Origin: Spirochaetota bacterium
Lineage (GTDB): Bacteria; Spirochaetota; Spirochaetia; DTKZ01
Length of the DNA stretch: 33,838 bases
Direction: 5' to 3'
Assembly: GCA_026418195.1 (NCBI GenBank)
Contig: JAOABU010000017.1
Coordinates: 1-33,838 of the forward strand
A model generated the notes under the pieces. The model worked only from the letters and a program-made list of their open reading frames with translations, did not search any database and had not been told where the DNA came from. Positions 1,881 through 31,006 of the stretch are shown here, one piece after another. Each line of letters begins with the position of its first letter. The stretch's first letter is position 1. Position numbers and translations under genes: made by a program.

Positions 1881-4823
1881 CTAGAACTCTTGATTCCGAA
1901 GATCTATCGGAATAGAAGGATAAATCTGTAGATCGTACGGCAAGGTTGGATTCAAGATCTTGCGCATATTCAAGTAAGCAAGGTTCTTAGTTTCTCCCCG
2001 CACTTTCGTTTCTCGATCCCTGGAAAAGTTCTCGTATAGCTCTATGGCATCGGTAAGAAACACGAGGGCTTCAGACGTCAAGTTCGGCCTTCGGGTTCGA
2101 TCTCCAAGGCGTTTCAGAGTTACTCCTAAATTGTTGTAGGTTTTCATCAACTTGACCACTAATGCTCGATCTTCCGGTTTGAGGTGAGGTTCCAGGAATC
2201 GAATTTTGCTCCGATCTTGGGTCAATTTTTCTACCAGATACTGATAGTAGCCAGAAGCAGCCGCATAATCATTCCGTTGGTATAGCGCGGTAGCTAAGGC
2301 AAATAGGACGTTTCGGTCCTCGGGAAACTTCGATTCAGTCTTTAAAAACTCGAGGATGGCCTGTTCATAGTTTCCAAAAAAATACAGGATGTACCCTTTT
2401 CGGTAGGACACTTCGGGATCCTGCACAAAGGATGCTTCCGCTTTCGTATACTGGGCCAACGCTTCCTGGAATTTTTGCCCCTCGTAATAGTATAGGTTCC
2501 CAAGCCCAACATAGAGGAGTCCCAAGGTTGGGTTAGGCTTCAAGAGACGAGTAGACACCGCTTCTTCGTAACGTCGGATGCCTTCCTGATAGGATCGTTC
2601 CGCCTCCAGCACTTCCCGTCTCTCCAACCGATAGTCCCCATCCCTTCTGTAGGTATCGATCAGTTTCCATATCTCCTTACGGGTAAGAGCGTTTTGTTTC
2701 TCCTTTTCTTGATAGAGATTCAAGGTTCGATCCAGGGCGATCCGTTCGTCTCGAGCTTTCCCTATAGTTCGGAATAGCCGGGCAAACTGATAGTGTACTT
2801 CAGCCACATTCGGATTTGCCTTCATGGCCCGTGTTAGAAGGGGTTGCACATCCTCCGTCTTACCTTTGTCGATCAGGTACCCTGCCAACATGGCGTACCG
2901 ATGGACATCGATTTCCAGTTTTTCCTTCTTTTCGAAGTATTCTTTCAATCGATTCACTTCTGCGAACTCATCCGTGAGAATGAAAAGCTCGAGAAATCGA
3001 AAGAGAATGGTATCCTTGTCCCCATACCGCTGTAAGAGGGTACCATAGGTTTTTCTAGCTTCCTGGTATTTTTGCGGGTCTACATCCGCCCATCGGAGGT
3101 AATTATCCCCCAATGCGAGGAGTCCCTGCCAATGGTAGAGGTCTACATTCAAGAGTTTCTTCAGGATCTTTTCTGCTTTTTCATAGTTTTCCAAAACCCG
3201 AGATTCAAGATCCCCATAGGATAGAACTCCCCGTTCGAAATAGGAGTCCTTCTTACGTTCCGTCCAGATTTTCGTCCGCGGGTGGATATAATCGGCGTAA
3301 TGGGCCAGGAGTTCTTCATACTTTGCTTGGGCAAGAGCATACTGTTTCTTCTTCACGAAAAGGTCTGCATACCGAAAGTACCATTCCTTGTCATCCCAAA
3401 TCCGATATGCTCGCTCGAAGTATCCATTCCCTTCCCGGTATCGGTCTGACTCGATCAGTGCATACCCTTGACGGAAGAGGGAGCGAGCATAGAGGGGTCT
3501 GTAAATATAGAGATATGCGCCATAGAAAAGAACCCCGGTAGCCAACGCTGAAGCCAGAGCTAACCTGAGGATGGGTAGGAACTTCTCTCGAAGGATGTAG
3601 GCTAGGGTTTCTTTTTCCGCTTCGTAGGCATACCCGGTTCGTTTCTCGTACCCCTTAGGAACCTTAATAGGACGACCTAACAGTTTTCCTGTGAAGGAAG
3701 CGATGGTGGAAAGGCTTTCCCCGGCCAAGAGGTATCGGATCAACTTGATCTGGTCTTCATCTGTTGCCTTGTTTCCACCGACTACCTCCTCTATGGCTCG
3801 TCTAAGATTCAACGGGAGGTCAGAAAGGGTTTTCTTGAATCGTTCAAACTCCTCGTCTGAAAGGGAAAACTCCTCCTCTTCCGCAACCGCTGCTATGACT
3901 TCCGCAGCACCGGCAGGGATATTGATGGTGGGCTCTTCTTCCTTTGCTTCTTCAGCTTCCAGAAGGCCAAACTCCGCTCCAAAATCTCCTAGACTGAACT
4001 CTTCCCCACCCAGTTCATCCACAGAGATTTCTTCCAATTCACCTTCTTCTTTCTCCCCTCTTTCCTCCATCGGAGCTTCCACTGAAGGAGGAGGCTGGAC
4101 AGACGGCTCCGCTTCTACCTTGCTCTCTTCAAAGAAGAACCCCTCTTCGAAGGAGGGCGTCTCTTCGATCCCTTTCCCTGGAACAACCTCTTCTGTTGAA
4201 ACAGCGCCCTCTTTGGGTAGCAAGGATTCTTCGAACGGGACCTCTTCTGGAAAGGGAAACTCTTCCGCTGTCTCCGCTTTTTCAGGTGTTGGCGCCTCCC
4301 CTTCTTCTTGGGCAGGCGCTTCCTCTTCCACCACAGGGAACTCCGGCATCTCGAACTCTTCTAGCGAAGGTTCTTGTTCTGGGCCCCCTTTCACAGGAAC
4401 CTCTTCTTCGAAGCTGAACTCCAAGGGTTCCGAGAGGCCTTCTTCTATCGATGGGGGATATGGCTCTTTAGAGGGACCTTCTTGAGGAAACCCCTCTGAC
4501 GGAAGTTCTTCTTCAAAATCGACAGGGAGTCCTTCTTCCTGCAGGGGTTCTCCGGGGGAAGTCCCTTCAAACTCAACGCCTGTCGTTTTCTCCTGCAGAA
4601 ATTGGTCAAGAGGGATTTCTTCAGATGCTTCCTCGGAGGTTGGTTCTACTGTCCCTTCGTCCAAGGGGATCCCTTCGAACAATTCTGCCAGATCAGCAGA
4701 AAGACCTTCCTCCGGTCTAGGTACCGGTTCTAAAGTTTCTCCTTTCTCGGCCAATACCTCCGGTTCATGGCCTGCTTCATAGAGTTTGGAGGCAAACTGT
4801 TCGATATCTTCTAATCGAGGCAT
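1881..4823 (-). CDS. Large TPR protein with acidic cytoplasmic domain and one membrane span; FlcA-like flagellar collar candidate
   Basis: The 980-residue product has three parts. Residues 1 to about 310 are extremely rich in Glu and Pro and look disordered. Residues 320-415 form a small, more ordered region. A single hydrophobic segment at about 417-441 (LALASALATGVLFYGAYLYI) is followed by about 500 residues of TPR-like helical repeats, for example FRQGYALIESDRYREGNGYF. There is no signal peptide, so the acidic part should be cytoplasmic and the repeats periplasmic. This layout is what I know of Borrelia BB0326 (FlcA), which builds the periplasmic flagellar collar and helps stator assembly. 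A sigma-28 promoter directly upstream supports a flagellar role. The exact orthology is inference; other spirochaetal TPR proteins are possible. The start has AAAGGG seven bases upstream. Confidence 0.8.
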   Translation of the reverse strand: MPRLEDIEQFASKLYEAGHEPEVLAEKGETLEPVPRPEEGLSADLAELFEGIPLDEGTVEPTSEEASEEIPLDQFLQEKTTGVEFEGTSPGEPLQEEGLPVDFEEELPSEGFPQEGPSKEPYPPSIEEGLSEPLEFSFEEEVPVKGGPEQEPSLEEFEMPEFPVVEEEAPAQEEGEAPTPEKAETAEEFPFPEEVPFEESLLPKEGAVSTEEVVPGKGIEETPSFEEGFFFEESKVEAEPSVQPPPSVEAPMEERGEKEEGELEEISVDELGGEEFSLGDFGAEFGLLEAEEAKEEEPTINIPAGAAEVIAAVAEEEEFSLSDEEFERFKKTLSDLPLNLRRAIEEVVGGNKATDEDQIKLIRYLLAGESLSTIASFTGKLLGRPIKVPKGYEKRTGYAYEAEKETLAYILREKFLPILRLALASALATGVLFYGAYLYIYRPLYARSLFRQGYALIESDRYREGNGYFERAYRIWDDKEWYFRYADLFVKKKQYALAQAKYEELLAHYADYIHPRTKIWTERKKDSYFERGVLSYGDLESRVLENYEKAEKILKKLLNVDLYHWQGLLALGDNYLRWADVDPQKYQEARKTYGTLLQRYGDKDTILFRFLELFILTDEFAEVNRLKEYFEKKEKLEIDVHRYAMLAGYLIDKGKTEDVQPLLTRAMKANPNVAEVHYQFARLFRTIGKARDERIALDRTLNLYQEKEKQNALTRKEIWKLIDTYRRDGDYRLERREVLEAERSYQEGIRRYEEAVSTRLLKPNPTLGLLYVGLGNLYYYEGQKFQEALAQYTKAEASFVQDPEVSYRKGYILYFFGNYEQAILEFLKTESKFPEDRNVLFALATALYQRNDYAAASGYYQYLVEKLTQDRSKIRFLEPHLKPEDRALVVKLMKTYNNLGVTLKRLGDRTRRPNLTSEALVFLTDAIELYENFSRDRETKVRGETKNLAYLNMRKILNPTLPYDLQIYPSIPIDLRNQEF

Positions 4824-4840
4824 TTGAACCCTTTACGTCA

Positions 4841-4867
4841 TTTTCGGCTAATACCAAAGATGCTTTA
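4841..4867 (-). promoter_or_regulatory. Sigma-28 (FliA) promoter for the TPR/DUF432/MscS operon
   Basis: On the minus strand TAAA (4867-4864) is followed by exactly 15 bases and then GCCGAAAA (4848-4841). The enterobacterial FliA consensus is TAAA-N15-GCCGATAA, so the -35 is complete and the -10 matches at seven of eight positions. The -10 ends 17 bases before the ATG, giving a leader of roughly ten bases that contains the AAAGGG ribosome site. Confidence 0.75.
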
Positions 4868-4921: not shown

Positions 4922-5626
4922 ATGCGCAAGTACTCCATACTTATAGCCTTACTAGCGACTATCAACATCCTTGCCATTGCTTCAGATTCGGAGGGCGATC
5001 TTCATATCAAAGTGATGCGAACCTTGAAGGCAGTTCCTCCAGAGCTCTACAATGGATATGCATTTTTCACCTTCCAACCCCAAACCTCTGTTCGATATGT
5101 GGGCATCGCCTTCCTGCATGAACAATTCCGAAGAGTTCACCTGTTTCAACGGAATGATAAAGGAGTGCTTTTTTTTACGTATCGTATCCCAGAAGGGATG
5201 ACTCACCTTGATTACCGCCTCGTCGTTGATGGTCTATGGATTACGGATCCCCTCAATCCTAATTCCTATCAGGATTCCCAGGGAATCTCCATATCCCGTT
5301 TTGAGTTTCTCAAAGAACAGGTAAGCATTACTTCTCGAAGCCCAATCATCAGGGAGGAAGAACAAAAGGTAGTATTCCTATTTCAAGCAGAACCAGGGAA
5401 GGATATTTACCTTACGGGATCCTTTGCCCGATGGGACCCGTATCTCTACCGGATGGAAGAGGTACGACCGGGGTTGTATACCCTAAGTCTTCGATTGCTT
5501 CCGGGTACCCACTTCTACGCTTTCTACAAGGACGGCAAACGGATACGGGACCCCCTTAACAAGGAATGGAGAAAGAGTAAAGAAGGGCAGGAAGCTTCGA
5601 TTCTGATCGTTCCGCCCCGATCCTAA
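4922..5626 (+). CDS. Exported protein with two tandem CBM48/AMPK-type glycogen-binding-like folds
   Basis: The product has 234 residues. The first 20 or so form a signal peptide (basic MRK, hydrophobic core SILIALLATINILAIA, small residues before the cut). Two similar beta-sandwich units follow at about residues 49-121 and 143-205. The second contains DIYLTGSFARWDPYLYRM and then LPGTHFYAFYKDGKRIRD, the usual pattern of CBM48/AMPK1 glycogen-binding modules. Both units end in the same short motif (ITDPLN and IRDPLN), which suggests an internal duplication. No catalytic domain is present. The start has AGGAA at a good distance. It is divergent from the TPR gene and 40 bases upstream of the HAD gene. 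The ligand is unknown, and the first unit is degenerate enough to be structural only. Confidence 0.72.
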   Translation: MRKYSILIALLATINILAIASDSEGDLHIKVMRTLKAVPPELYNGYAFFTFQPQTSVRYVGIAFLHEQFRRVHLFQRNDKGVLFFTYRIPEGMTHLDYRLVVDGLWITDPLNPNSYQDSQGISISRFEFLKEQVSITSRSPIIREEEQKVVFLFQAEPGKDIYLTGSFARWDPYLYRMEEVRPGLYTLSLRLLPGTHFYAFYKDGKRIRDPLNKEWRKSKEGQEASILIVPPRS

Positions 5627-9571: not shown

Positions 9572-9925
9572 ATGCAAGCTGCGGAAGAGTACCATCGATT
9601 CGACAAATTGATCCGCAAATATTACTGCGACCAACAGATGATCCGTGAGCTCTTGAGAATTCTCATTCGCGATCTACCGAAATCTCTTCGGGAGTTGGAA
9701 GAAGGTCTCATGGAAGCGGATGTTCGAAAAATCCGTAAAGCTGCTCATAGTTTAGCAAACATCAGTGGAACGGTATTAGAATCCGAGATTCTAGAACTTT
9801 CCCGTAAGATAGAGTATGCTTGTGCATCTCAGAACCTGAAGGATGTAGAATCGTACCTTCCTCCCCTCCGGCAGAGGATTTCTGAACTCTGTGTAGATGC
9901 AGGCAAATACCTACAGGTATCTTGA
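9572..9925 (+). CDS. Stand-alone HPt (histidine phosphotransfer) domain protein
   Basis: The 117-residue product is entirely helical and contains the HPt signature around His59 (KAAHSLANISGTV), where the usual pattern is AH-x-LKG-x3-x-G. The histidine is present, so phosphotransfer is possible, although the common Lys after Leu is Ala here. Such proteins relay phosphate between response regulators in cytoplasmic phosphorelays. No histidine kinase or receiver domain is encoded in the window, so its partners are elsewhere. AGGAGGGG precedes the ATG. The gene is nine bases upstream of a permease gene, so the two are probably cotranscribed, although a functional link is not evident. Confidence 0.82.
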   Translation: MQAAEEYHRFDKLIRKYYCDQQMIRELLRILIRDLPKSLRELEEGLMEADVRKIRKAAHSLANISGTVLESEILELSRKIEYACASQNLKDVESYLPPLRQRISELCVDAGKYLQVS

Positions 9926-21426: not shown

Positions 21427-22146
21427 TTGCGAGAGGAACCCAAGATCGATACTGTAGAAGCCGTGGGAACGCTGTATATCATTGCCACCCCATTAGGAAA
21501 CCTTCAGGATATTACGTATCGGGCCATTGAAACCCTTAGGCAGGTAGACGTAGTAGCTTGTGAGGATACTAGGCGAAGCATCAAACTGTTAAATGCGTAC
21601 AATATCCAGAAACCTCTATTAAGTTGCCATGGTCACAATGAAACGAAAAGCGCGCTCCGGGTGCGTGAACTCCTTTCGGAAGGAAAGAAGGTAGCTTACC
21701 TGAGCGATGCTGGGACTCCGGGGTTGAGTGATCCAGGGGCCAAATTAGTACGAGTGGCCAGGGAAGCAGGATTTTCCGTTCTTCCCATTCCTGGTCCATC
21801 TGCCTTCGCTACCCTTGTGAGTGTGGCTGGACTGAAGGAGGCTTCTGTTCATTTTGAGGGGTTTCTAGGAATCAAACCGGGGAAACGCCGCTTAAGGCTT
21901 AGAGAATTATTGGAGCGAAACGAACCTTTTGTCCTGTACGAATCGGTTCATCGCATCGAAAAACTCCTTCAGGAACTTAGAGACCTCGCTCCCGAGAGAA
22001 CCTTGTTCATTGGAAGAGAGATGACAAAAGCCTATGAAGAATACTTAGAAGGATCCGTAGAGGAACTCCTTGCTCAAGTACAGGAGCACCCGGATCGGAA
22101 AAAAGGTGAGTACGCTGTACTTGTCTACAGCGGGAAAAAGAGTTAA
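21427..22146 (+). CDS. rsmI: 16S rRNA (cytidine-1402-2'-O)-methyltransferase
   Basis: The 239-residue protein has the tetrapyrrole-methylase fold of RsmI: LYIIATPLGNLQDIT, ACEDTRRSIKLLN, SDAGTPGLSDPGAKLV and PGPSAFATLVSVAG in order. It methylates the 2'-hydroxyl of C1402 in the ribosomal decoding centre using S-adenosylmethionine. The start is uncertain. The TTG at 21427 gives a normal-length N-terminus (15 residues before LYII), and the frame is closed by TAG 21397-21399 upstream with no ATG or GTG before it. A ribosome site is not visible. The stop codon overlaps the -35 of the flgM sigma-28 promoter. Confidence 0.92.
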   Translation: MREEPKIDTVEAVGTLYIIATPLGNLQDITYRAIETLRQVDVVACEDTRRSIKLLNAYNIQKPLLSCHGHNETKSALRVRELLSEGKKVAYLSDAGTPGLSDPGAKLVRVAREAGFSVLPIPGPSAFATLVSVAGLKEASVHFEGFLGIKPGKRRLRLRELLERNEPFVLYESVHRIEKLLQELRDLAPERTLFIGREMTKAYEEYLEGSVEELLAQVQEHPDRKKGEYAVLVYSGKKS

Positions 22147-22170
22147 AATTGAACTCAGCAATGCCGATAC
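22144..22170 (+). promoter_or_regulatory. Sigma-28 (FliA) promoter of flgM
   Basis: TAAA (22144-22147, beginning with the rsmI stop codon) is followed by 15 bases and GCCGATAC (22163-22170). Against TAAA-N15-GCCGATAA the -35 is perfect and the -10 matches at seven of eight. The leader would be about 23 bases with AGGAAGGG. Confidence 0.8.
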
Positions 22171-22199
22171 TAAGGTAGAGCTAAAGGAAGGGCTTTAGA

Positions 22200-22484
22200 A
22201 TGACCATCGAAAGACTTGGACCTACAGGACCTATTTCGAACTACAATAAAACAGGAAAGGTATCGAAATCCGATTCCATTCTGGGTAAAGATTCCATCGA
22301 TGTGTCGGAAGAGGCAAAACAGAAAGCCGAAGTATTCAAAGCCCTTGAAAGTTTGCGATCTGTACCGGATATTCGTGAAGACCGGGTAGCCGAGGTAAAG
22401 AAAAAGCTGGAAGATCCTAATTACATCAACGAGAAAGTGATCGAATCTGTGGCAGAACGAATCATGGATCTATTCAAGATCTAA
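22200..22484 (+). CDS. flgM: FlgM-like anti-sigma-28 factor
   Basis: The 94-residue protein has the FlgM layout: a disordered polar first half (with SIDVSEEAKQKAE, resembling the usual D-x-V-x-LS-x-A box) and a helical second half with VPDIREDRVAEVKKKLED, then YINEKVIESVAERIMD. FlgM binds and holds sigma-28 until the flagellar hook is complete and FlgM is exported. The perfectly spaced sigma-28 promoter upstream fits the feedback known for flgM in other bacteria. AGGAAGGG precedes the ATG. The gene is followed by two hairpins and a T run, so it is largely monocistronic. In spirochaetes export would be into the periplasm or beyond through the flagellar apparatus; that step is inferred from other bacteria. 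Confidence 0.85.
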   Translation: MTIERLGPTGPISNYNKTGKVSKSDSILGKDSIDVSEEAKQKAEVFKALESLRSVPDIREDRVAEVKKKLEDPNYINEKVIESVAERIMDLFKI

Positions 22485-25269: not shown

Positions 25270-26757
25270 TTATCCTTTCGCTTCTCGATCAAAGGCTTGG
25301 GAGAGTCGTTCTAGAATCTTTTGGAATTGATCATGGGTGGTTATCCGGTAGGAGGAAAGAATCCCTGCATCAACCTGTTCGTAGGTAATCAAGCCATCTG
25401 CATAACTACAGAAAGAATTGGCAAGGTAAACCGTATCTACCACCTCTCGATGTACCTTGGGCGCCCGCTGCGGTTCATGATGAAACCTGATCGCTGAGAT
25501 AAGGGCATCGGGAAAATTCCATTTCTCCGCAATTAGCCCCCCAATTTCTGCATGGTTCAACCCCCCTGTCATTGCTTCAAACAGTTCCTTGGGAATCCCT
25601 TTTTCTTTACATAGACGGGTTATTTTTTCGAGAAGTTCGGGATGGACATTGGAAAAGACGATTTTCCCCATGTCATGGAGAATGCCTCCTACGTACACAT
25701 CATCTAAAATATCTTTTTTTCGAATAAAATTCTTCGCTAGGCTGTATGCGTAGAAACCTGTACGGTAGGAGTGCTGCCAAAGGGCTTTCCCTTTCTCACT
25801 GTCGATCCCACCGAGAAGTTTCTGGGTTCCGTACGAATAGAGAAGGTTTTTCAGTCCCCGGAGCCCTACCATCTTTACCGCTTCTACGATGTTGTCCACC
25901 TTTTTAGGTAGCATAAATTGGGCAGAGTTCACTAGCTTTAATAAGTCCGCTGTTAGTGCAGGGTCTGTAGAGATCTGGCGGGCAATGTCGGTAATTTCAC
26001 TATCCGGATCTGATAACATCCGCTGCAATTGTACGATGTTTTCGGGAAACTTGGGCAACTGATCGATCTCAGCCACGATCTGCCGACTGAGAAGGTCGAG
26101 ACTCTCTAGTTTAACCTGATCCATGGGGATGGTGAGACGTGCCACAGTCTCCCCATTCTCCACGTCGATGTCGAAAGCGTCCTCATCCAAGTTCAACTTT
26201 TTCAACATCAGGACCAGAATCACGATCCCCAGCCCTGCGCCCTCCGAATCGTCCAAAACAGTGGATAAGGCTTCTTCCAATGAGGCAAACGCTCGCGAAC
26301 GGGCGATCCGGTCATACACTCGGATCTGTTCCTTTTTCGTGATCTCCGCATTGTTACGGACCTGAATATTGAGGGTTGTACCGTTCTTGTGAAATACCAC
26401 CTTGATATAGAGACCTGCATCCTTCTGCTGCTGCAACCAAAAATCGATATTTTCCAAAGTCTCTACCTTAAACTGCGCCATGCCTTTTGCGTAGTCCTCA
26501 TCGTCATGGATGTTGAGATTCTTAAGCTTGAAATATACTCTCTTTGTGTTGGCTTTTTTTGCGTTCACCGCTAGTTCCCGCAAGCAATACGCTAGTGGTT
26601 CCTTTAAGTTTTCCCGCCCCAACTCTTTCAGGAAAATCCCTAGCACTTCTTCCAGGTATAATTCCATATCGTGGGGAAGAGTGTACGTTTTTATGGCAAA
26701 AGGAACAGCATTACGGGCAGCATGGAGAACTTTTTCAACATCGACACTTACAGGCAT
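25270..26757 (-). CDS. HATPase-HDOD fusion signalling protein
   Basis: The product has 495 residues. The first 220 or so resemble a histidine-kinase-type ATPase domain, with an N-box-like ELAVNAKKAN and a G-box-like DDSEGAGLGIVILVLML, but there is no dimerisation/His domain. Residues from about 235 form an HDOD domain: LPKFPENIVQLQRMLSDPDS, TDPALTADLLKLVNSAQF and a metal-site set WQHSYRT, GILHDMGK, NHAEIGG and FHHEP. Many HDOD proteins have lost the HD pair; here most ligands are kept, so a phosphodiesterase-like role cannot be excluded. Cytoplasmic and probably regulatory. GGAAGGTGA precedes the ATG, and the gene has its own promoter. The signal and partner are unknown. Confidence 0.8.
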   Translation of the reverse strand: MPVSVDVEKVLHAARNAVPFAIKTYTLPHDMELYLEEVLGIFLKELGRENLKEPLAYCLRELAVNAKKANTKRVYFKLKNLNIHDDEDYAKGMAQFKVETLENIDFWLQQQKDAGLYIKVVFHKNGTTLNIQVRNNAEITKKEQIRVYDRIARSRAFASLEEALSTVLDDSEGAGLGIVILVLMLKKLNLDEDAFDIDVENGETVARLTIPMDQVKLESLDLLSRQIVAEIDQLPKFPENIVQLQRMLSDPDSEITDIARQISTDPALTADLLKLVNSAQFMLPKKVDNIVEAVKMVGLRGLKNLLYSYGTQKLLGGIDSEKGKALWQHSYRTGFYAYSLAKNFIRKKDILDDVYVGGILHDMGKIVFSNVHPELLEKITRLCKEKGIPKELFEAMTGGLNHAEIGGLIAEKWNFPDALISAIRFHHEPQRAPKVHREVVDTVYLANSFCSYADGLITYEQVDAGILSSYRITTHDQFQKILERLSQAFDREAKG

Positions 26758-29353: not shown

Positions 29354-30124
29354 ATGGTAAGTAAAGAAGAACTCAATGGGAAAGTTCTTTCCGAAAGTGA
29401 CCAACATAAACTCATTTGGCTCGGTACGGATGAACAAGAAAATGAAGGTGTGGTCCAAACCAACCAGTACTTAATCATTCACAAAGGGAAAGGTATCCTC
29501 TTGGATCCAGGTGGAGTGCATCTTTTCGCTAGAGTAGTCAGTGCAGTAAGTAGGTATATTCCCTTAGAATCCATCGAGCACATCCTATTTTCCCACCAGG
29601 ATCCGGATGTTTCCTCTGGAATAGCCCTTTGGATGGGGGTTACGAAAGCGAAGATCTACATTTCCAACCTTTGGTTACGATTTCTTCCCCATTTTGGTAT
29701 TGTGGACAATAGTCGCATCATTGGGATTGAAGGATTAGGTGGCAAACTTCCCGTAGAGTTCCATCTCCAATGCATCCCCGCTCATTTCCTCCATTCCACA
29801 GGAAACTATTCGTTCTACGATCAAGAATCGAGAACCCTGTTTTCTGGAGACATTGGGGCAGCTGTATTCCCTAAAGGAGGGCAGTACGTCTTAGTAACTG
29901 ACTTTGATTCCCACATGAAATATATGATAGATTTCCATCGGAGATACATGGGTTCCAACAAAGTACTGAAAAAATGGGTTCAGAGCGTATACAACCTCCC
30001 CCTCCATTACATCGCGCCTCAGCATGGCGCCATCTTTCCAGAAGCTCAAACAAAGAGGTTCCTCGATTGGTTACAGAATCTAGAATGTGGGATTGACTTG
30101 CTCGATACGATCTATAAACAATAG
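29354..30124 (+). CDS. ODP: metallo-beta-lactamase-fold diiron oxygen/iron sensor
   Basis: The 256-residue protein is a metallo-beta-lactamase domain of the flavodiiron (FprA/ROO) type without the flavodoxin part. The metal set is His81, Asp83, Asp85 (SHQDPD), His144 with His147 close by, Asp166 (FSGDIGAA) and His224 (PQHGAIF). Flavodiiron enzymes have HxExDH at the first site; here the last His position is Val86. Proteins of this class (ODP) are known from Treponema denticola and Thermotoga, where they bind iron and oxygen and signal to a soluble chemoreceptor and CheA. An MCP gene follows here after 12 bases, the same arrangement. AGGAGG precedes the ATG. ODP identity is strongly supported by this context. 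Confidence 0.88.
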   Translation: MVSKEELNGKVLSESDQHKLIWLGTDEQENEGVVQTNQYLIIHKGKGILLDPGGVHLFARVVSAVSRYIPLESIEHILFSHQDPDVSSGIALWMGVTKAKIYISNLWLRFLPHFGIVDNSRIIGIEGLGGKLPVEFHLQCIPAHFLHSTGNYSFYDQESRTLFSGDIGAAVFPKGGQYVLVTDFDSHMKYMIDFHRRYMGSNKVLKKWVQSVYNLPLHYIAPQHGAIFPEAQTKRFLDWLQNLECGIDLLDTIYKQ

Positions 30125-30136
30125 GGGAACAGATCC

Positions 30137-31006
30137 ATGGGATACGATTACGAGATCAGCCCTGAACTTTACAAACAGTTCGCTAGTACTATCAGTCGCT
30201 TTGTCATCGGATACAATAAGAGTATCATTCAAACCAGAATTACCGCGCATTCCTTCCAAATCGTCAACCAGAACATAGAACAGATCAAGAGCCAACTTTC
30301 TTCTGTGGTAGCCGCGTTCGAAGAAATTCGAGCTACTTCGGAAAGCACTTCGAAGAATGCTTCTGCCATCAACGTGGGGATGAGTAAGGTCTTGGAAAAA
30401 AACGCCCTCGTGGGAGATAGTATCTCCAAACGCGAGATCGAAATAAACGAAGCTAAGGCTAACGCTGAACGAATCCATTCCTTGTTTCAGAGATTGGCAG
30501 AAAAATCCGCTAGTATCCAGAACGCCACAGAAGAAATTAACGATGTCTCAGATCGGACGAATGTGCTAGCCATCAATGCATCCATCGAAGCAGCCCGGGC
30601 GGGAGTGGTAGGAAGGGGATTCCGGATCATCGCGAACGAGGTAAAGAAATTAGCTTCCCAGACAGGGAATTTTGCTAAGGATATCTCCAACGTGATCCAG
30701 GAGTTTTCCCAGATACTGGCAGAGATTGAACAACAGATCTCCGAGTTTTCAGAGCTCTTGAACCGTTTGAACCAAGATTTTGCCTGGTTAAAGGCTACTT
30801 TCGCAGAAACGGCCACCAACGCCCAAGAAACCAGCGGATCCATCAGCCAGATTGCCCATGCCATCCAGGAACAGACGGTTGCCTTAAACGAGGGATTAAA
30901 GAATTTGGAAACCACCTTTCAATACCTCACCGATTCCCATGCAGTTCTCCACGCCCTCGTTCGGTCCCACGAGTACCTGGACAAGCTATTGGATCGCAAA
31001 GCTTGA
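30137..31006 (+). CDS. Soluble methyl-accepting chemotaxis protein, ODP partner
   Basis: The 289-residue protein has no membrane span and no recognisable sensor domain. It is nearly all coiled coil, with the conserved receptor hairpin tip that binds CheA and CheW near the middle (SDRTNVLAINASIEAARAG, then GRGFRIIANEVKKLASQTG). The N-terminal 40 or so residues (YEISPELYKQFASTI...) are the only part free to serve as an input, probably by contacting the ODP protein encoded just upstream. GGGGAA precedes the ATG. Oxygen- or iron-driven control of swimming is the likely output. This follows work on the T. denticola pair and is inferred here from gene order. Confidence 0.93.
   Translation: MGYDYEISPELYKQFASTISRFVIGYNKSIIQTRITAHSFQIVNQNIEQIKSQLSSVVAAFEEIRATSESTSKNASAINVGMSKVLEKNALVGDSISKREIEINEAKANAERIHSLFQRLAEKSASIQNATEEINDVSDRTNVLAINASIEAARAGVVGRGFRIIANEVKKLASQTGNFAKDISNVIQEFSQILAEIEQQISEFSELLNRLNQDFAWLKATFAETATNAQETSGSISQIAHAIQEQTVALNEGLKNLETTFQYLTDSHAVLHALVRSHEYLDKLLDRKA

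Follow-up and report, generated by a model that had tools for sequence, protein, structure and literature searches.

A predicted flagellar collar gene, flcA, with a sigma-28-type promoter and a divergently transcribed exported partner in a Spirochaetota genome

The window, by which we mean the whole stretch of 33,838 nucleotides that was analysed, carries the gene flcA and, across a 98-base intergenic region, a divergently transcribed gene starting at 4922, whose small exported product is referred to here as the partner. A sequence-only reading of this DNA had described a 980-residue open reading frame (ORF) within the span 1881-4867, with the strand unstated. The ORF is real: it lies on the minus strand and ends at 4823, and the longer span takes in the promoter. 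The flgM gene and its own sigma-28-type site share the window with flcA (22144-22484). Coordinates are collected in Table 1.

Table 1. Features of the flcA region, of the flgM region and of one Treponema locus
Feature	Position	Strand	Basis or remark
flcA, 980 aa, ATG start	1881..4823	-	NCBIfam FlcA_CTERM, 3.1e-187, 624 bits, cut-off 300
FlcA periplasmic TPR superhelix (predicted), ~residues 441-957	1953..3503	-	Pfam TPR, AlphaFold2, fold match
FlcA hydrophobic membrane span (predicted), ~residues 415-437	3513..3581	-	Hydropathy and predicted model
FlcA juxtamembrane cytoplasmic four-helix domain (predicted), residues 323-382	3678..3857	-	AlphaFold2
FlcA acidic disordered linker (predicted), ~residues 45-317, ~32% D+E, 4% K+R	3873..4691	-	Composition, AlphaFold2
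Last aromatic island of linker, residues 274-286 (EEFSLGDFGAEFG)	3966..4004	-	F276 conserved
FlcA N-terminal motif, residues 1-39	4707..4823	-	NF047372, 41 bits, cut-off 28
AAAGGG, Shine-Dalgarno-like, 5 bases before flcA ATG	4829..4834	-	Read from sequence
Putative sigma-28-type promoter, TAAA-N15-GCCGAAAA, full TAAAGCATCTTTGGTATTAGCCGAAAA	4841..4867	-	Ends 17 bases before flcA ATG
Partner gene, 234 aa, signal peptide and AMPK1_CBM/CBM48-like domain	4922..5626	+	Candidate flagellar/collar protein
Sigma-28-type site TAAA-N15-GCCGATAC, 29 bases before flgM	22144..22170	+	At most 1 mismatch
flgM, anti-sigma-28 factor	22200..22484	+	Pfam FlgM, 8.2e-10
DUF2259 protein	L143:10536-11246		Pfam match checked in L143

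Two curated NCBIfam models of FlcA matched the flcA product. NF047371 (FlcA_CTERM) covered residues 325-974 at model positions 1-645 of 646, with 624 bits against a curated cut-off of 300, and NF047372 (FlcA_NTERM) covered residues 1-39, with 41.1 bits against a curated cut-off of 28. A profile search of the whole genome found one place over the cut-off, hence a single copy of flcA; flagellins are present in the same genome. Because both curated models matched and this genome has one copy, the product of 1881-4823 is, judged by its sequence, FlcA, which lies at the periphery of the collar in the periplasmic flagellar motor of spirochaetes. This bears out the FlcA-like identity put forward in the sequence-only reading, which had named a profile search among its checks. 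The assignment itself is ordinary, the protein being already known from the Lyme spirochaete.

Of 198 genomes sampled from the phylum, 159 had a FlcA match at E ≤ 1e-20, 71 of them over the cut-off; none of 14 control genomes matched at that E-value. In genomes taken to be Borrelia-like from their size (main contig of about 0.92 Mb) and from the position of the gene (at about 335 kb), the product has 940-955 residues, matched both models and had the same architecture. The viral contigs searched contained no relative. The two sets of homologous loci used below (L074-L113 and L114-L185) overlap, so that some genomes are counted redundantly.

The structure of FlcA was predicted with AlphaFold2 from 38 sequences. 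The model has two short helices within residues 4-26, a disordered stretch (almost the whole of residues 50-317 at pLDDT below 50), a helical domain at 323-382, a single long helix (407-458) bearing the hydrophobic span, and a TPR superhelix extending to residue 957, mostly with pLDDT above 90; Pfam TPR matches begin at about residue 568. In the predicted topology one span separates a cytoplasmic tail from a periplasmic TPR domain. Model and hydropathy agree with the one membrane span and the roughly 500 residues of TPR-like repeats that had been read from the sequence. The cytoplasmic domain of 300 residues in the same reading is indeed acidic, but it is neither of that size nor a single unit: the tail comprises about 410 residues in three segments.

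By fold, the best solved relative of the model was PDB 8ebf (E 3.7e-10; profile match 2.8e-23), the TPR domain of the Leptospira interrogans protein LIC11990, which the deposit calls simply a cytoplasmic membrane protein. The match has 14% identity and only a partial fit (TM 0.35/0.47). BB0326 of Borrelia burgdorferi likewise has an acidic cytoplasmic N-terminal part, one span and a periplasmic TPR domain of about 570 residues. Its C-terminal part has been taken as residues 360-931 (PMC8609358), in keeping with the predicted span of Borrelia-like proteins, at about 340-375. At the edge of the Borrelia collar, S-shaped densities were modelled as the periplasmic TPR domain of FlcA, and FlcA is reported to contact FliL and MotB (PMC11750108). 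The Campylobacter proteins PflA and PflB, TPR scaffolds that form the motor spokes and rim (PMC11870540), are functional analogues at most, likened to FlcA by their description.

The sequence-only reading had left the acidic domain unexplained and suggested that it could contact the stator or C-ring; such a contact may exist, the comparisons speaking neither for nor against it. The tail recurs in the homologues. Where the N-terminus of a homologue is complete, a start of the type MP-x-x-x-L/I is almost always present, with an acidic linker after it. This linker was about 240 to 550 residues long in 56 of 57 complete held-out proteins, the lone exception being a record whose ORF runs to the contig end; median composition of the held-out linkers was about 29% D+E and 3% K+R. 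By such comparisons the acidic tail is a family-wide trait of FlcA, Borrelia-like FlcA included, and not peculiar to this organism. The linkers differ in proline content, which is about 12% here and about 3% in Borrelia-like tails. Aromatic islands recur in the linker. F276 of the island EEFSLGDFGAEFG is phenylalanine in 95% of sequences, and two motifs were more frequent in held-out linkers than in shuffled sequences: F-x-[LIMVF]-P-x-F (37 against 1.4 expected) and [DE]F[STDE][LIMF] (140 against 31 expected), counts that come from related sequences and are not independent events. In seven Spirochaetia genomes the N-terminal motif exceeded its cut-off at flcA only, the rest being at noise level, and a search for it in other proteins of nine genomes gave nothing convincing. 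The juxtamembrane helical domain (323-382) had no fold match in the PDB at E ≤ 0.001. As modelled, the tail begins with the conserved 39-residue motif, continues as a disordered acidic linker in which aromatic islands recur, and closes with the small helical domain; we read it as a tether that ends in this motif and bears several weak candidate binding islands.

Upstream of flcA, the sigma-28-type element that had been claimed 17 bases before the ATG proved to be an exact match, with no second copy in the 3.13-Mb genome: the pattern TAAA-N14-16-GCCGAWAA occurs once in 3,132,329 bases, before flcA. Sites in the genome were counted through pattern search alone. With TAAA-N15-GCCGATAA and at most one mismatch, 11 sites were found genome-wide. 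At two mismatches a reversed-pattern control was as frequent as the pattern (192 versus 161), therefore only the best sites are informative. Three of the 11 precede flagellar genes, namely those of flagellin (109 bases ahead of the longest ORF start), flgM (29 bases) and flcA (17 bases). A fourth is on another contig, ahead of the gene of a 1009-residue repeat protein; the others are mostly within reading frames. A sigma-28 promoter of this type, mapped in T. denticola, has the -10 element CCGATAA and the -35 element TTAA (PMC9481697). The presence of sites of the same type before flagellin and flgM, and of similar sites before flcA in other lineages, supports, as far as sequence goes, the placement of flcA in the late flagellar regulon that had been proposed. 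In this respect the gene differs from that of Borrelia burgdorferi, an organism which lacks sigma-28 (PMC11607428).

Two alternatives concern flcA and its control. The ORF could encode another membrane TPR protein that resembles FlcA through its generic repeats alone. TPR repeats match many proteins, and the FlcA profile weakly matches 16 other places in the same genome. However, FlcA_CTERM scored at twice its cut-off across the full model, the independent N-terminal model passed too, and the second-best genomic place for the profile reached 36 bits, which makes this explanation hardly credible. The other alternative is that the sigma-28-like sequence is coincidental and that the main sigma factor transcribes flcA, as in Borrelia, which is without sigma-28. 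Such a site is missing upstream of flcA in several relatives, and a sigma-70-like arrangement is seen instead at some Treponema-type loci. In the upstream regions of flcA of the relatives a site with at most one mismatch was found in 9 of 81, against 0.5 expected from shuffles; tested against all real control ORFs the enrichment was marginal (p = 0.07). It became strong (p about 4e-6) once the partner and DUF2259-like genes were removed from the controls, an exclusion chosen after the hits had been seen, and the relatives in this test are not independent. Against coincidence stand the exactness and uniqueness of the site in this genome, and the three flagellar genes behind the 11 best sites. 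We judge a chance resemblance to be distinctly improbable; flcA is most likely transcribed from the putative sigma-28 promoter at 4841-4867.

The partner proteins carry signal peptides (by inspection), and the Brachyspira-like members have a lipobox-like cysteine, so that in this lineage the partner is predicted to be a lipoprotein. The C-terminal half of the partner matched AMPK1_CBM (Pfam 5.6e-11, 42.9 bits, cut-off 26.8), as did 18 of 21 family members at E ≤ 0.001. Among its relatives in the PDB are AMPK beta and branching enzymes. With the glycogen-binding domain of AMPK beta and CBM48 the C-terminal half has an E-set beta-sandwich in common; unlike these, the partner is free-standing and exported, has no enzyme attached, and its motifs are split across the halves. 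VDGxW lies in the first half and GSFxxWDPF in the second, therefore neither half has both. Since the conserved tryptophans are divided in this way, a protein-binding scaffold appears preferable to a glycan binder.

Sigma-28-like sites were also found before the partner genes. In the 150 bases preceding the start, a site with at most one mismatch was present in 14 of 53 regions, against 0.3 expected from shuffles (p = 5e-6 versus all control ORFs). The 53 regions are the window's own and those of 52 relatives, and all 14 sites are in relatives, mostly 34-41 bases from the start. The window's own partner upstream region contains no good sigma-28 site, the best having four mismatches.

When seven proteins of the window were compared with 110 homologous loci, only the partner recurred besides FlcA. 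The phosphatidylserine enzymes were present in 2 of the 110 loci and the other window neighbours in none. The partner was divergently upstream of flcA in 75 of 110 loci, or in 75 of 89 usable ones, as 21 of the 35 partner-less loci have less than 450 bases of upstream DNA. A profile of the partner family had a match in 189 of the 198 genomes of the phylum sample, mostly as one stand-alone ORF of about 220-380 residues per genome. Among 136 genomes in which both genes were located, the divergent adjacency was found in 67, under 20 family labels; in the remaining genomes the genes are on separate contigs (many are drafts) or apart.

Away from flcA, the partner was repeatedly met beside other flagellar genes. 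In each of the seven Brachyspira-like genomes that were read it comes directly after fliS (the protein was confirmed by Pfam in one and by similarity in six), and in another lineage it adjoins a flagellin. In Borrelia-like genomes some 8-13 kb separate it from flcA; the single such genome read has it between the genes of an oligopeptide-transporter ATPase (oppF) and enolase (eno), and it is presumably BB0336/P26 of the B. burgdorferi map. Searches for BB0336 or the partner family found nothing in the literature collection used. One family divides by genus: none of the 7 genomes of the first genus has either flcA or the partner, and all 4 of its sister genus have the two. The partner also occurs in some genomes that gave no FlcA match at the chosen threshold; FlcA is possibly too divergent there.

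Some loci without a recognised adjacent flcA have an acidic protein beside the partner. In one lineage the partner is divergent from such a protein (L212:2950-4599, L216:1-1809); the L212 protein has a weak FlcA_CTERM match (25 bits) and is probably a very divergent FlcA. In two lineages without adjacent flcA a membrane protein with an acidic part adjoins the partner (L208:2794-4701, L210:2844-4700); scanning of the L210 protein gave weak TPR matches alone.

From the gene linkage, the promoters and the shared absence we predict that the partner works as a flagellar protein, and consider this likely. Gene pairing and common promoters indicate a functional link, not placement in the collar. That the partner is a structural part of the collar is a more tentative prediction, with the balance slightly against it. 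The Borrelia collar model contains large unassigned densities whose positions, according to its authors, could guide screens for further collar proteins, and one of them adjoins a membrane-associated region, which suggests a transmembrane or lipidated protein (PMC11750108). For such a density the partner is a reasonable candidate. Its nearly phylum-wide spread and its repeated ties to flagellar genes make it a good candidate for a missing motor part. With similar reserve, it may found a family of periplasmic E-set proteins, so far uncharacterised and present in almost the whole phylum, which fills an unassigned collar density near FlcA.

Two other roles were weighed for the partner. It could bind glycans or serve sugar metabolism and have no more than an intergenic region in common with flcA, as AMPK1_CBM/CBM48 is its sole recognised domain and AMPK beta and branching enzymes are among its PDB relatives. 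We hold this to be unlikely: the protein is exported, no member read is fused to an enzyme, relatives have sigma-28-like promoters, the gene adjoins flcA, fliS and in one lineage a flagellin, and one genus lacks both it and flcA. Alternatively, the partner could help FlcA in the periplasm as a chaperone or assembly factor without being built into the collar. This would agree with a small exported protein encoded beside a single large client, and the beta-sandwich fold would suit such a task. Yet the partner gene is separated from flcA in several lineages, in some of these still linked to other flagellar genes, and the predicted lipoprotein status in the Brachyspira-like lineage also speaks against this role, which we regard as somewhat unlikely. 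The flagellar role remains our preferred reading. The pairing with flcA across lineages, the sigma-28-like promoters of relatives and the flagellar neighbours make the partner a concrete collar candidate.

A working scheme for FlcA can be proposed on this basis. Its single membrane helix would hold the large periplasmic TPR superhelix, which by homology may brace the MotA/MotB stators through FliL and MotB in this organism as well. On the cytoplasmic side the acidic tether, with its end motif, aromatic islands and membrane-side helical domain, may capture a partner protein. Transcription from the promoter at 4841-4867, if sigma-28 dependent, would have FlcA made alongside the late flagellar genes. 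The exported beta-sandwich protein of 4922-5626 would join FlcA in the periplasm as an additional part of the flagellum, probably of its collar. Identity, mechanism and promoter of FlcA, taken jointly, appear highly probable. What the analysis adds beyond FlcA itself is the tail as a conserved trait with definable motifs, and the partner as a strong candidate. The conserved design of the tail turns it into a defined question, that of the cytoplasmic binding partner of the 39-residue motif.

Several other genes were noticed. The 1009-residue repeat protein of contig 152 of the same genome (L186:3287-6316) is exported, and the sigma-28-like site lies 36 bases upstream of its gene. It has relatives in several Spirochaetia families, and its neighbours are a large membrane protein and a UPF0164 protein. 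It was considered as a second collar protein, or FlcB, and rejected: no NCBIfam model matched it, and a search of three Borrelia-like genomes did not find it. In Treponema loci a secreted DUF2259 protein has sigma-28-type sites upstream in 14 loci (L143, with equivalents in L145, L147, L152, L154, L157-L159, L161, L162, L167, L169, L172 and L176); these sites make it a possible further member of the flagellar regulon. Within the window, 29354-31006 encodes an ODP-family diiron/beta-lactamase-fold protein (Pfam ODP 3.2e-72) followed directly by a soluble methyl-accepting signalling protein (MCPsignal 7e-25), the arrangement of an oxygen-sensing chemotaxis pair. An HDOD protein (25270-26757) and a stand-alone Hpt domain protein (9572-9925) are possible parts of a signalling network.
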